This document shows, one piece after another, positions 3,126 to 56,965 of a stretch of DNA of 60,652 bases. Under the pieces are notes generated by a model that did no database searches, had not been told where the DNA came from, and saw nothing but the letters and a program-made list of their open reading frames with translations. Within the stretch, counting starts at the first letter, position 1. Every line of letters begins with the position of its first letter. The translations under genes were made by a program, and so were the position numbers. Source of the DNA: Candidatus Saelkia tenebricola. Its GTDB lineage: Bacteria > Omnitrophota > Gorgyraeia > Kaelpiales > Kaelpiaceae. The DNA is taken from assembly GCA_030765145.1 (NCBI GenBank), contig JAVCDA010000021.1, forward strand, positions 1 through 60,652, read 5' to 3'.

Positions 3126-3246
3126 AATGGAAATGTATCCCCACTGATTTGTAAAACAAATCAAACATGTGGGGATAATTCGCCCAGGTAATTTACATTC
3201 ATCCTGGAAATCAGGATTCTGTAAATCAGGGGGCTCATTAGGAGGT
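3126..3246 (+). promoter_or_regulatory. Structured 5' leader of the DUF74 operon (copy 1 of a twice-seen element)
   Basis: Between lnt and the first DUF74 gene lies about 120 bases that fold well on paper. Arm 1 pairs TATCCCCAC (3136-3144) with GTGGGGATA (3169-3177), and inside it TGATTTG (3145-3151) with CAAATCA (3157-3163). Arm 2 pairs ATTTACA (3191-3197) with TGTAAAT (3220-3226), enclosing ATCCTG/CAGGAT. It ends in GCTCATTAGGAGGT (3233-3246), which holds the ribosome-binding site. ATGTATCC, TGATTTG, AATCAA, GGGATAATT and that last 14-mer recur in the same order before aspS. It resembles no riboswitch class I recognise. Confidence 0.55.
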
Positions 3247-3252
3247 GAGAGA

Positions 3253-3570
3253 ATGATTGTTACTAATATCGATTCAGTTCCTGGTAAAAGAATTGTTGAA
3301 CATTTTGGTATTGTTCAAGGCAGTACTGTTCGAGCTCGGCATGTAGGCGCTGATTTAGCTGCTAGTCTTAAGAACTTGGTTGGCGGAGAATTAAAAGGCT
3401 ATACAAAATTATTGGAAGATGCCCGAGCAGAATCTTTAGGAAGGCTTATTCAGCAGGCTCAGCAATTGGGAGCTAATGCGATTATTAATATCCGATTTGC
3501 AACAGCTGCAGTGGCTCAAGGAGCTGCAGAGTTGATGGCTTACGGAACTGCTGTGCGGGTAGAAGAATAA
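3253..3570 (+). CDS. YbjQ/UPF0145 (DUF74) family protein
   Basis: A 105-residue soluble protein of the YbjQ (UPF0145, PF01906) family, whose members form small oligomers and are loosely called heavy-metal-binding; the real function is unknown. The ATG at 3253 is preceded by a strong AGGAGGT six bases upstream; an upstream in-frame extension covers the leader and is not credible. Family hallmarks are the central LKNLVGGELKGYTKLLEDAR stretch, the GANAIINIRF strand and the terminal AYGTAV. It is followed by a membrane-anchored paralogue and an M48 protease, which suggests one operon. Confidence 0.9.
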   Translation: MIVTNIDSVPGKRIVEHFGIVQGSTVRARHVGADLAASLKNLVGGELKGYTKLLEDARAESLGRLIQQAQQLGANAIINIRFATAAVAQGAAELMAYGTAVRVEE

Positions 3571-3580
3571 AGGAGGGTCT

Positions 3581-4042
3581 ATGGATGCTCTGATTTATTT
3601 TATATTATTTATTTTTGTAGGATATATTTCAGGAACAATAATTGAAAAGAAACATTATCTTGATATTGAAGTAAGAGAAAAAAAATATTTAAATTTGCCC
3701 GCAATCAGTTCTAAAAATATAGAAGATGAAAGCCGGATTTTATCTGCCAATTTAGTTAGCGGTAGTGTTGTTATTTCACTTGATTATTTCAAGCGTTTTC
3801 TTGCCGGCCTGCGTAATGTCGTTGGTGGTAGAATTCATAGCTATGAAACTCTCTTGGACAGGTCTCGTCGGGAAGCTGTTCTAAGAATGAAGGAAAATGC
3901 CAGCAGTATGAATGCCGATATGATTTTAAATATCAGATTCCAAACCTTGGGAGTTGGACAAAAAGCAAATAAAAAAGGTAATATCGGTTGCTTTGAAGTC
4001 GTAGCATATGGAACAGCAGTGAAACTAAAACCCGGAACATGA
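3581..4042 (+). CDS. Membrane-anchored YbjQ/DUF74 paralogue
   Basis: A 153-residue protein with an N-terminal transmembrane helix (about residues 4-20), a polar linker, and a DUF74 domain from about residue 50 (GLRNVVGGRIHSYETLLDR, NADMILNIRF, AYGTAV). It is clearly a paralogue of the preceding soluble protein, so the pair may form a mixed oligomer tethered to the inner membrane. AGGAGGG sits just before the ATG at 3581. Its stop overlaps the start of the protease gene by 4 bases (ATGA), indicating translational coupling. The domain call is firm; the function is not known. Confidence 0.85.
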   Translation: MDALIYFILFIFVGYISGTIIEKKHYLDIEVREKKYLNLPAISSKNIEDESRILSANLVSGSVVISLDYFKRFLAGLRNVVGGRIHSYETLLDRSRREAVLRMKENASSMNADMILNIRFQTLGVGQKANKKGNIGCFEVVAYGTAVKLKPGT

Positions 4043-46256: not shown

Positions 46257-47510
46257 ATGAAATATCAAAAATTGAGAGGAACTGAGGATATAATTTCTCC
46301 TCAAATTGAATTATGGCAGGAAATAGAAAGTATATCCCGTGATTTATTTGAAGTATCAGGTTATAAGGAAATAAAAACTCCGATAGTTGAGTTTTTGCAG
46401 CTTTTTCAGCGTAGTATCGGAAAAAATACTGATATTGTAGAGAAAGAAATTTTTCAATTTCAGGATAGATCCGAAAGAAAAATTGCGCTTCGTCCTGAAG
46501 CCACTGCTTCTATAGTTCGTGCTTATTTAGAATGCGGGCTATATCAAAATCCAGGATTGACAAAATTATATTATATAGGTCCTATGTTTCGCGCAGAAAG
46601 GCCTCAAAAGGGGCGGAAGAGACAATTTTATCAAGTTGGCATTGAAGCTATAGGGTCTTTGAATCCTGAGATAGATGCTGAAGTTATATGGTTAGTTAAA
46701 AAGCTACTTGATAATTTGGGTGTTGATGATTTTAGAATTGAAATAAACAGTTTGGGTTGTGATGATGATAAAATCAAAATTGTGGATTATTTAAAAGGTG
46801 AAATTAGTAAAAATTTAGATCACTTTTGCCAGAATTGCCAGAATAGATTTGAAAGAAATGTTTTAAGAGTTTTGGATTGTAAAAATCCGGATTGTAAAAG
46901 TTGTTTGAAAAATCTCAAAATAGATATTAAAACGGTGATTTGTAAAAATTGCATGCAACATTATAACGAAGTCAAATCGTTATTAACTGTATTAGGAGTT
47001 CAATATGAAGAAAATAAATATTTAGTTCGGGGGCTTGATTATTACACCAGAACAGTGTTTGAAGTCTTAAATTATAATTTGGGGGCTCAAAATGTGATTT
47101 GTGCAGGTGGAAGATATGATAATCTCGTTGAAGAAATGGGTGGTAAACCTACAGGAGCTGTGGGGTTTGCTTTAGGAATGGAAAGAATTGCCATGCTTCT
47201 TGAGGATAGAAGTAAAAAAAAGATAGAATTGGATATTTTTTTAATTCTTCAGGACAGAATGTTTTTGAAAGAAGCATTAAAAGAGTTAATAAATTTAAGA
47301 GAAAATGGAATTTATGCTGAGATGGATTATCAGAGTAGGTCTTTAAAATCTCAGATGAGATTGGCTAATGAAAAAAAAGCGAGATATGTTTTAATTTTAG
47401 GACAAAAAGAGTGGGAAAAAGGTGAATTCTGTTTAAAAGATATGAAAACAGGGAGTCAAATCAATATAAAAAAAGAAAAATTGTTAGAAGTAATTAATCG
47501 AATTATATAG
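46257..47510 (+). CDS. hisS: Histidyl-tRNA synthetase
   Basis: Class II synthetase charging tRNA-His. The 417 residues start YQKLRGTEDI and show motif 2 (GPMFRAERPQKGRKRQFYQ), the HisRS-specific LVRGLDYYTRTVFE and AGGRYDNL, motif 3 (AVGFALGMERI) and a C-terminal anticodon domain. A TATAAT at 46214-46219 may be its -10; AAGG 11 bases upstream is a weak ribosome-binding site. aspS follows after a 107-base leader. Confidence 0.97.
   Translation: MKYQKLRGTEDIISPQIELWQEIESISRDLFEVSGYKEIKTPIVEFLQLFQRSIGKNTDIVEKEIFQFQDRSERKIALRPEATASIVRAYLECGLYQNPGLTKLYYIGPMFRAERPQKGRKRQFYQVGIEAIGSLNPEIDAEVIWLVKKLLDNLGVDDFRIEINSLGCDDDKIKIVDYLKGEISKNLDHFCQNCQNRFERNVLRVLDCKNPDCKSCLKNLKIDIKTVICKNCMQHYNEVKSLLTVLGVQYEENKYLVRGLDYYTRTVFEVLNYNLGAQNVICAGGRYDNLVEEMGGKPTGAVGFALGMERIAMLLEDRSKKKIELDIFLILQDRMFLKEALKELINLRENGIYAEMDYQSRSLKSQMRLANEKKARYVLILGQKEWEKGEFCLKDMKTGSQINIKKEKLLEVINRII
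47481..47509 (+). promoter_or_regulatory. Candidate promoter of aspS
   Basis: TTGTTA (47481-47486), 17-base spacer, TATATA (47504-47509), inside the end of hisS. A start near 47516 would make a transcript that opens with the leader element at 47526-47613. Confidence 0.4.
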
Positions 47511-47525
47511 TTTTTTATGGGGATA

Positions 47526-47613
47526 ATGGGATGTATCCTTATATGTTTGATTTGATTTGGGAATCAACAGGGATAATTTGTAGACGGCTGATGCCTTATG
47601 CTCATTAGGAGGT
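47526..47613 (+). promoter_or_regulatory. Structured 5' leader of aspS (copy 2 of a twice-seen element)
   Basis: Shares an ordered set of blocks with the leader at 3126-3246: ATGTATCC, TGATTTG, AATCAA, GGGATAATT and GCTCATTAGGAGGT (47600-47613). TATCC (47534-47538) can pair with the GGATA of GGGATAATT (47570-47578), and inside it TTGATT pairs with AATCAA. The distance from GTATCC to GGGATAATT is 37 bases in both copies. The second arm is shorter here (GGC-TGAT-GCC). The ribosome-binding site again lies in the shared 14-mer, before a TTG start. Confidence 0.55.
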
Positions 47614-47617
47614 TAAA

Positions 47618-49024
47618 TTGTTACGTACTCATTATTGTGGCCAGATTCGTAAGAAAGATGTAGAAAAAGAAGTTTCTCTTTGTGGATGGATTTACAGAAT
47701 AAGAGAACATGGAAAAATAGTTTTTTTGGATTTAAGAGATAGAGAAGGTTCTATTCAAGTTGTTTGTGTTCCAAGCGTTTTGAAAGATAATTTTGATGTT
47801 ATGCGCAATTTAGGCAAGGAGGATGTTATTCTTCTTAAGGGTATAGTTCAGGCGCGGCCGAAAGGTACTATTAATGATAAAATACCTACCGGTGAAGTTG
47901 AAATTTTGATTAATGATATCGAAATTTTAAATAAATGTAAGAATCATCCGTTTGATATGGAAATAGAAACTGAAGTTGCTGAGGAATTACGTTTGAAGCA
48001 CAGGTACTTGGATTTAAGAAGCCCCAAGCTGCAATCAAATTTTATTTTCAGACATAAAGTTGTGAAAAAAATCAGGGATTTATTTGATCAGTCAGGGTTT
48101 ATCGAAATTGAAACTCCGATTCTTACTAAATCTACTCCGGAAGGAGCTCGTGATTTTCTGGTACCTTCCCGATTGCGTTCTGGTGCATTTTATGCTTTGC
48201 CCCAATCTCCCCAGCTGTTCAAACAGATATTGATGGTCGCGGGGTTTGATAAATATTTTCAAATCGCAAGGTGTTTTAGAGATGAAGATTTGCGGGCCGA
48301 TAGGCAACCAGAATTTACTCAATTAGATTTAGAAATGAGTTTTATTGAAGAAGAGGATATTTTTACTTTGATAGAAATGGTGTTAAAAGATGTGTTTAAG
48401 TATGTTTTAAACTTAGATATCAAAATACCATTTCCGCGTCTTAATCATAAGGATGTGATAGCAAAATACGGGAGTGACAAGCCGGATTTAAGGCAAGATT
48501 TGAATGGAGAGTTTTGTTTCCTGTGGATTAAGGAATTTCCTCTATTTCATTTTAATCAAGATTCCAATAGCTGGGATATGGAGCATCATCCTTTTACAGC
48601 GCCGCATGCTGATGATATAAATTTGCTTGGAAAAAATATGGATAAAATACGTGCCCGCTCCTATGATTTAGTGCTTAACGGAGTTGAATTGGGAAGCGGA
48701 AGCATTAGAATACATAATAGAGAGTTACAGAAGAAGATTTTTGAAACTATAGGTATAAGCGAGGAAGATGCAGAGAGAAAATTTGGTTTTCTGCTCCGTG
48801 CTCTTGAATGCGGAGCTCCTCCTCATGGAGGTTTTGCATTGGGGTTAGACAGATTAATAACCATTATGCTTGGTAAAGAAAGCATAAGAGATGTAATTGC
48901 TTTTCCTAAGACTCAACGTGGAGTTTGCCCTTTAGCTGATGCCCCTTCTTTTGTAGATTTAAGCCAGTTATTAGAGTTGAAAATTAAAATATTGAAGGAG
49001 GAAAAAAATGAAGATAAAAAATAG
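47618..49024 (+). CDS. aspS: Aspartyl-tRNA synthetase lacking the GAD insertion domain
   Basis: Class II synthetase charging tRNA-Asp. The 468 residues have the OB-fold (about 1-105), the bacterial-type catalytic core (LRLKHRYLDLR, motif 2 FRDEDLRADRQPEFTQLD, motif 3 GGFALGLDRLI) and the bacterial C-terminal extension. Bacterial AspRS is normally near 590 residues because a GAD domain of roughly 110-130 residues follows YGSDKPDLR. Here only about eight residues lie between Arg292 and FLWIKEFPLF (from 301), so that domain is cleanly absent. TTG start with a strong AGGAGGT. Confidence 0.95.
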   Translation: MLRTHYCGQIRKKDVEKEVSLCGWIYRIREHGKIVFLDLRDREGSIQVVCVPSVLKDNFDVMRNLGKEDVILLKGIVQARPKGTINDKIPTGEVEILINDIEILNKCKNHPFDMEIETEVAEELRLKHRYLDLRSPKLQSNFIFRHKVVKKIRDLFDQSGFIEIETPILTKSTPEGARDFLVPSRLRSGAFYALPQSPQLFKQILMVAGFDKYFQIARCFRDEDLRADRQPEFTQLDLEMSFIEEEDIFTLIEMVLKDVFKYVLNLDIKIPFPRLNHKDVIAKYGSDKPDLRQDLNGEFCFLWIKEFPLFHFNQDSNSWDMEHHPFTAPHADDINLLGKNMDKIRARSYDLVLNGVELGSGSIRIHNRELQKKIFETIGISEEDAERKFGFLLRALECGAPPHGGFALGLDRLITIMLGKESIRDVIAFPKTQRGVCPLADAPSFVDLSQLLELKIKILKEEKNEDKK

Positions 49025-56924: not shown

Positions 56925-56965
56925 GAATTTCCGGGACAGAGTCCCTGGAATTATGGGATAATTCC
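56925..56965 (+). promoter_or_regulatory. Mutually exclusive hairpins in the apgM leader
   Basis: Hairpin A: AATT, CC and GGGAC (56926-56937) pair with GTCCC, GG and AATT (56941-56952) around an AGA loop. Hairpin B: GGAATTAT (56947-56954) pairs perfectly with ATAATTCC (56958-56965). Both need GGAATT, so only one can form. No U-run follows B, and no known lysine or threonine control element is recognised. Confidence 0.45.

Follow-up and report, generated by a model that had tools for sequence, protein, structure and literature searches.

Two leaders within a 60,652-nucleotide stretch of Candidatus Saelkia tenebricola DNA (analysed as a whole and called the window), one upstream of a DUF74/YbjQ gene (copy 1) and one upstream of aspS (copy 2), carry similar sequence blocks and end at a ribosome-binding site. 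The question raised by this locus is whether they represent a regulatory RNA common to both genes, as the original prediction of a riboswitch-like or protein-bound leader proposed, or an element of another kind. Both leaders were found to carry the listed blocks in the same order, with GCTCATTAGGAGGT exact in both (Table 1). The distance from GTATCC to GGGATAATT was 37 nt in both copies. When up to two mismatches were allowed, GTATCC-N31-GGGATAATT matched exactly twice in the window compared to 0.09 ± 0.29 expected matches, and 0 of 100 shuffles contained two such matches, showing that the spacing of the outer pair is not due to chance. Other matches of GGGATAATT in the window were at chance level, and an exact one at 56955 was judged by inspection not to be an element. 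The outer TATCC/GGATA pairing was present in the minimum-energy folds of both copies. When the whole leaders were folded as RNA, the energy of copy 1 was clearly below that of shuffled sequences (z -3.0) and that of copy 2 only weakly so (z -0.8). The long second hairpin predicted for copy 1 proved to be real (3176-3240), and the placement of the last block at the ribosome-binding site was borne out, the end of the element directly abutting that site.

Table 1. Positions of the two leader copies and their neighbouring genes in the window.
Feature	Position	Strand	Evidence or remark
Copy 1 block ATGTATCC	3133-3140		
Copy 1 block GGGATAATT	3172-3180		
Copy 1 block GCTCATTAGGAGGT	3233-3246		
Copy 1 hairpin A, TATCCCCAC..GTGGGGATA, inner TGATTTGT/ACAAATCA, AACAT bulge	3136..3177	+	DNA fold z -5.9
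Copy 1 element B, TAATTC-hairpin-GCTCATTA	3176..3240	+	R1 58 bits, E 9.1e-14, in training set
Shine-Dalgarno AGGAGG, directly 3' of copy 1 B	3240..3245	+	sequence; 7 nt before ATG at 3253
DUF74/YbjQ gene (PF01906), downstream of copy 1	3253..3570	+	Pfam E 1.9e-36
hisS, upstream of copy 2	46257..47510	+	Pfam PF13393 E 7.1e-48
Copy 2 block ATGTATCC	47531-47538		
Copy 2 block GGGATAATT	47570-47578		
Copy 2 block GCTCATTAGGAGGT	47600-47613		
Copy 2 hairpin A, degenerate, TATCCT..GGGATA	47534..47575	+	fold weak, z -1.8
Copy 2 short element B, TAATTTG-TAGACGGCTGATGCCTTAT-GCTCATTA	47574..47607	+	R1 E 0.016, outside training set
Shine-Dalgarno AGGAGG of aspS	47607..47612	+	sequence
aspS (AspRS, 468 aa), downstream of copy 2	47618..49024	+	Pfam PF00152 E 1.6e-122

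The likeness of the two leaders was thus real, but it was not peculiar to these two genes, as more copies were found across the genome. Copy counts in this genome, a draft of 88 contigs with an estimated contamination of 3.4%, rest on sequence searches: CTCATTAGGAGG occurred 8 times exactly and 12 times with one mismatch, before unrelated genes and mostly with tandem or mosaic related repeats upstream, and the pattern TAATTYGC-(20 to 80)-CTCATTA had 13 matches compared to 1 for a reversed-pattern control. In both leaders the blocks belong to a dispersed palindromic repeat, here called element B, and constitute its conserved ends. Element B has the form AATTC-[covarying hairpin]-TCATT. In most cases a second hairpin, A, is attached to it, and the two are often arranged as B(inverted)-A-B. 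In the main type of B (nine copies), the hairpin sequence varies by locus and the pairing is kept, as in GCGC-AG-ATGATTTATG..CATAAATCAT-GCGC before aroC, GCCC-AT-GCACTTTACG..CGTAAATTGC-GGGC just upstream of the aroC-leader hairpin, and GCAC-A-GTGACTTATG..CATAAGTCAC-GTGC before a second aspS. A second form, GCAGAC-GGCTNATGCC-..-CTGC, has a small hairpin in place of the bulge. Longer members of this form adopt a three-way-junction fold, and one copy carries the compensated change of GCAG/CTGC to GTAG/CTAC. Copy 1 contains a standard B, which folded as DNA with z -3.8 and covaried across relatives, and hairpins A of the same type were found next to further copies (L006 and L146). Copy 2 is a shortened member of the second form, in which the inner stem is missing and a GGC/GCC mini-hairpin is kept; this short form was also found in tandem at L003 and within the longer three-way-junction copies.

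A covariance model (R1) was trained on nine main-type B elements, namely copy 1 and eight others, with copy 2 excluded. Copy 2 was the second-best R1 match in the window. There were 16 R1 matches in this genome, 10 directly before a Shine-Dalgarno sequence and 4 as tandem partners in such leaders, the remaining ones being a reverse-strand self-match and a match by a terminator-like T run. The genes downstream included aspS, the DUF74 gene, aroC, fusA, eno, ribH, rpsE, rpsL, gcvH, atpE and others, with no common function.

Three observations concern the neighbouring genes. A second DUF74/YbjQ gene (PF01906) lies in tandem at 3581-4042, and the element is present only before the first one. Typical bacterial AspRS contains a GAD domain; Pfam reported none in the 468-aa AspRS of the window, and its best match, in the Omnitrophota genome UBA10183 (L024), was similarly short. 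A further aspS start, which shares the upstream flank but has a different A-B element, lies on contig C48 (L008 / L134) and may reflect a strain mixture in the metagenome-assembled genome (MAG) or a duplication; because the genome is a draft with estimated contamination, this contig may stem from another strain.

The original prediction anticipated further copies with covarying pairs in related genomes, and both were found. The search of relatives, which included this genome, gave R1 matches in 41 of 59 genomes and as many as 82 in a single one; across the phylum, 186 of 285 genomes had matches. Among 26 named control genomes from many phyla, reached via AspRS matches, R1 matched once each in three (the Omnitrophota genome UBA10183, an Elusimicrobia MAG and a Firestonebacteria MAG) and in none of the other 23. 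The repeat is scattered through most genomes of what is probably, judging by the best AspRS match, the phylum Omnitrophota. The single copies in the Elusimicrobia and Firestonebacteria MAGs (L333, L334) may reflect horizontal transfer or mis-binned contigs. Hairpin A could be sorted into a small number of recurring types (CCCAGCACTAATTTT, CCCCCACACCAATTT and others) common to genomes of different families (L222, L225, L228, L235, L164, L219, L251).

Pairing was strongly covaried. In 105 distinct R1 matches, 98.2% of cells paired compared to 77.7 ± 0.5 in shuffled controls, and 394 cells were doubly changed compared to 102 ± 11. The covariation score was 0.55, compared to 0.03-0.07 for slid controls. 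G-U pairs made up 0.8% of B pairs compared to 6.2% in 48 tRNAs from the loci examined, hinting that Watson-Crick palindromes are kept at the DNA level, although the model itself favours Watson-Crick pairs, which may explain some of the shortage of G-U pairs. In the suggested check for known families, with gathering and relaxed thresholds, Rfam gave only chance matches apart from tRNAs, and no family for the element. A 26-base consensus of stem and loop had no exact match in viral contigs, and nothing describing this repeat was found, as judged by title and abstract, in the open literature searched on Omnitrophota or Omnitrophica repeats, palindromes and mobile elements.

The junctions at which the element sits in this genome were mostly empty in same-family genomes (G001-G004) with the same neighbours, as found for rpsL, atpE, ribH, rpsE, eno, gcvH and hisS-aspS. 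The stop-to-start distances in relatives were 1-2 nt for rpsL, 12-14 nt for atpE and 12 nt for rpsE, and in G001 and G003 they were 14 nt for ribH, -17 to -5 nt for eno and -14 nt for gcvH. In this genome, 72-187 nt separated the upstream stop from the terminal motif at these junctions. The hisS and aspS genes overlapped by 7 nt or lay 1 nt apart in four relatives, with the element absent. Where relatives lack the element, aspS has its Shine-Dalgarno sequence within or at the end of hisS, which implies that the insertion point follows the Shine-Dalgarno sequence and not the stop codon. In G004, elements or other insertions were present before ribH, eno, gcvH and aroC and not before rpsL, rpsE and aspS. 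The B before gcvH in G004 was 86% identical to copy 1 of the window over 70 nt, and within this assembly the fusA leader and the second aspS leader were 89% identical over 110 nt. Gain rather than loss would be the simpler reading at these junctions. A search for empty sites among the loci examined gave three spanning matches; the two that were aligned were not clean, and these matches were not used as evidence. The mscS-like gene on contig C20 is preceded by three tandem 45-bp units (L003). One degenerate unit is kept in G001 and G003, so this leader is partly inherited vertically.

When neighbouring B elements not more than 450 nt apart were compared, the arrangement B(inverted)..B was found 31 times, compared to 8, 5 and 2 times for the other arrangements (15 together). 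These composites are short (about 150-420 nt) and non-coding, with inverted B arms as terminal inverted repeats. The ends of B were conserved as AATTC in 140 of 169 cases and as TCATT in 138 of 169, and in this genome the TCATT end lies mostly directly 5' of a Shine-Dalgarno sequence. In 6 of the 31 two-armed composites the Shine-Dalgarno sequence was duplicated on both sides as direct repeats of 7-10 bp, and in 25 this duplication was absent. The duplicated sequence was the Shine-Dalgarno-like CCTCCTT in L164 and L238 (reverse strand), AAGGAGG in L274 and L250 (the latter read by eye from the flanks), AAGGGGGGTA in L230 and AAGGAAGT in L251. The mean shared run of the composite flanks was 4.97, compared to 4.07 ± 0.19 when permuted (0/300).

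By a heuristic open-reading-frame test, 76 of 169 ends faced a start codon within about 32 nt, 54 faced the stop codon of a gene on the opposite strand (12 faced both) and 51 faced neither. The preference for these targets thus has exceptions, and it could arise in part from selection against insertions within genes. Other genomes also have the element at the ends of genes, behind a tRNA gene or behind terminators, and they contain tandem and inverted composites of it. Where a gene ends at the element, the stop is often a TAA or TGA within the TAATGAG end, and in many relatives this end gives the neighbouring gene its TAA stop codon (L155, L171, L176, L218, L226), suggesting that insertions may trim the 3' ends of genes.

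Because of the empty sites, the scattered positions at gene ends, a tRNA gene and terminators, and the tandem and inverted composites, both leaders are very probably copies of a non-autonomous, hairpin-forming mobile DNA repeat, made of B and usually A, with a length of about 150-300 bp and B(inverted)-A-B as its fullest form. The same evidence bears on the original prediction, of which the shared, structured and covarying element ending at the ribosome-binding site stood and the riboswitch-like or protein-bound role did not. A cis-acting regulatory RNA common to the DUF74 gene, aspS and the other genes would account for the strong covariation, for the position between stop and start codons in this genome and for the end fixed at the Shine-Dalgarno sequence. 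However, a regulon of this kind was rejected on the diversity of the downstream genes and the mostly empty orthologous leaders. Other genomes moreover have copies at gene ends and behind a tRNA gene, composites are inverted or tandem and G-U pairs are nearly absent, so that such an RNA is very improbable. A repeat of mobile DNA origin that has been domesticated, and is now kept in some leaders for an RNA effect on translation or mRNA stability, is rather unlikely, though clearly less so: domestication fits the way it immediately precedes the Shine-Dalgarno sequence of core genes in this genome, and also the partly vertical mscS-like leader (degenerate unit in G001 and G003), but even genomes of one family do not share most of the leaders.

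The mobile repeat was also compared with known families. It works like REPIN, BIME and MITE repeats while lying outside the definition of REP, whose repeats form GTAG and CGTC superfamilies (PMC3733652). As described in PMC3733652 and PMC3116915, those repeats are likewise short intergenic palindromes, often in inverted pairs around a spacer that may fold, clustered and patchy between species. Movement as a REP/REPIN family by a Y1 (RAYT-like) transposase agrees with the inverted hairpin pairs and with Y1 genes in 48 of 59 relatives, which were weakly associated with B (Fisher p 0.07; Spearman 0.31, p 0.018), but both the tag test and the Y1 linkage test failed. GTAG was found in 2 and 4 of 169 at the two ends and CGTC in 2 and 10 (random control, 4 and 11), no B was present within the 30 Y1 loci searched, and there was no Y1 match in this genome (G000) or in G055, which has 58 copies. 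Target duplications are moreover not expected of Y1 transposition, and membership of this family is unlikely. Unlike these repeats, the element is a longer bulged hairpin with AATTC/TCATT ends that tends to sit at Shine-Dalgarno sequences, lacks a GTAG or CGTC tag and had no linked Y1 transposase. Integron attC sites have RYYYAAC/GTTRRRY boxes. The element resembles them in outline, in that it folds, has conserved outer boxes and extrahelical bases, and combines a variable stem with an unpaired spacer, but its ends are AATTC/TCATT and its copies are scattered singly at core genes and not in cassette arrays; attC identity was rejected on the wrong boxes and missing arrays and is scarcely credible. 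The pneumococcal BOX, RUP and SPRITE repeats, thought to be parasitic rather than regulatory, are similarly modular, tandem and mosaic and predicted to fold when transcribed (PMC3049150), but differ in sequence and phylum, and the repeat described here has the inverted B-A-B form and a fixed end at the ribosome-binding site. Bacterial MITEs are also small, non-autonomous and intergenic, with inverted terminal repeats (PMC10969869), and the direct repeats flanking some composites may correspond to the target duplications of MITEs. In contrast to MITEs, both arms here are hairpins in their own right that covariation maintains, no parent insertion sequence was seen in the loci examined, and duplications occur in only 6 of 31 composites.

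In the mobile repeat proposed here, an enzyme would recognise the folded ends (AATTC/TCATT, the TC/TC internal mismatch and the asymmetric bulge) and would insert the repeat beside purine-rich, Shine-Dalgarno-like sequences. The Shine-Dalgarno sequence would stay 3' of the insertion or be duplicated around it; the downstream gene would then retain its ribosome-binding site, and the leaders of core genes would therefore tolerate insertion. The transcribed hairpin in front of the ribosome-binding site may alter translation or mRNA stability as a by-product, making an RNA-level effect on the downstream gene possible. No mobilising enzyme for B was found in the genomes and loci examined, and an 840-bp B..B interval (L214) contained no open reading frame other than one of 90 aa, in which no transposase was recognised on visual inspection. 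We tentatively suggest, at somewhat less than even odds, that these are phylum-wide mobile palindromes apart from REP/RAYT that land on Shine-Dalgarno sequences, keep or duplicate the landing site, colonise core-operon leaders without silencing them, and are moved by an enzyme that reads folded DNA.

These findings indicate that mobile DNA palindromes can be the source of very strong base-pair covariation upstream of genes, a trap for riboswitch discovery in uncultured phyla. They also provide a test case of how a repeat could enter the ribosome-binding region of core genes such as rpsL, fusA, aspS, eno and atpE without destroying their expression, and for asking which enzyme moves it.
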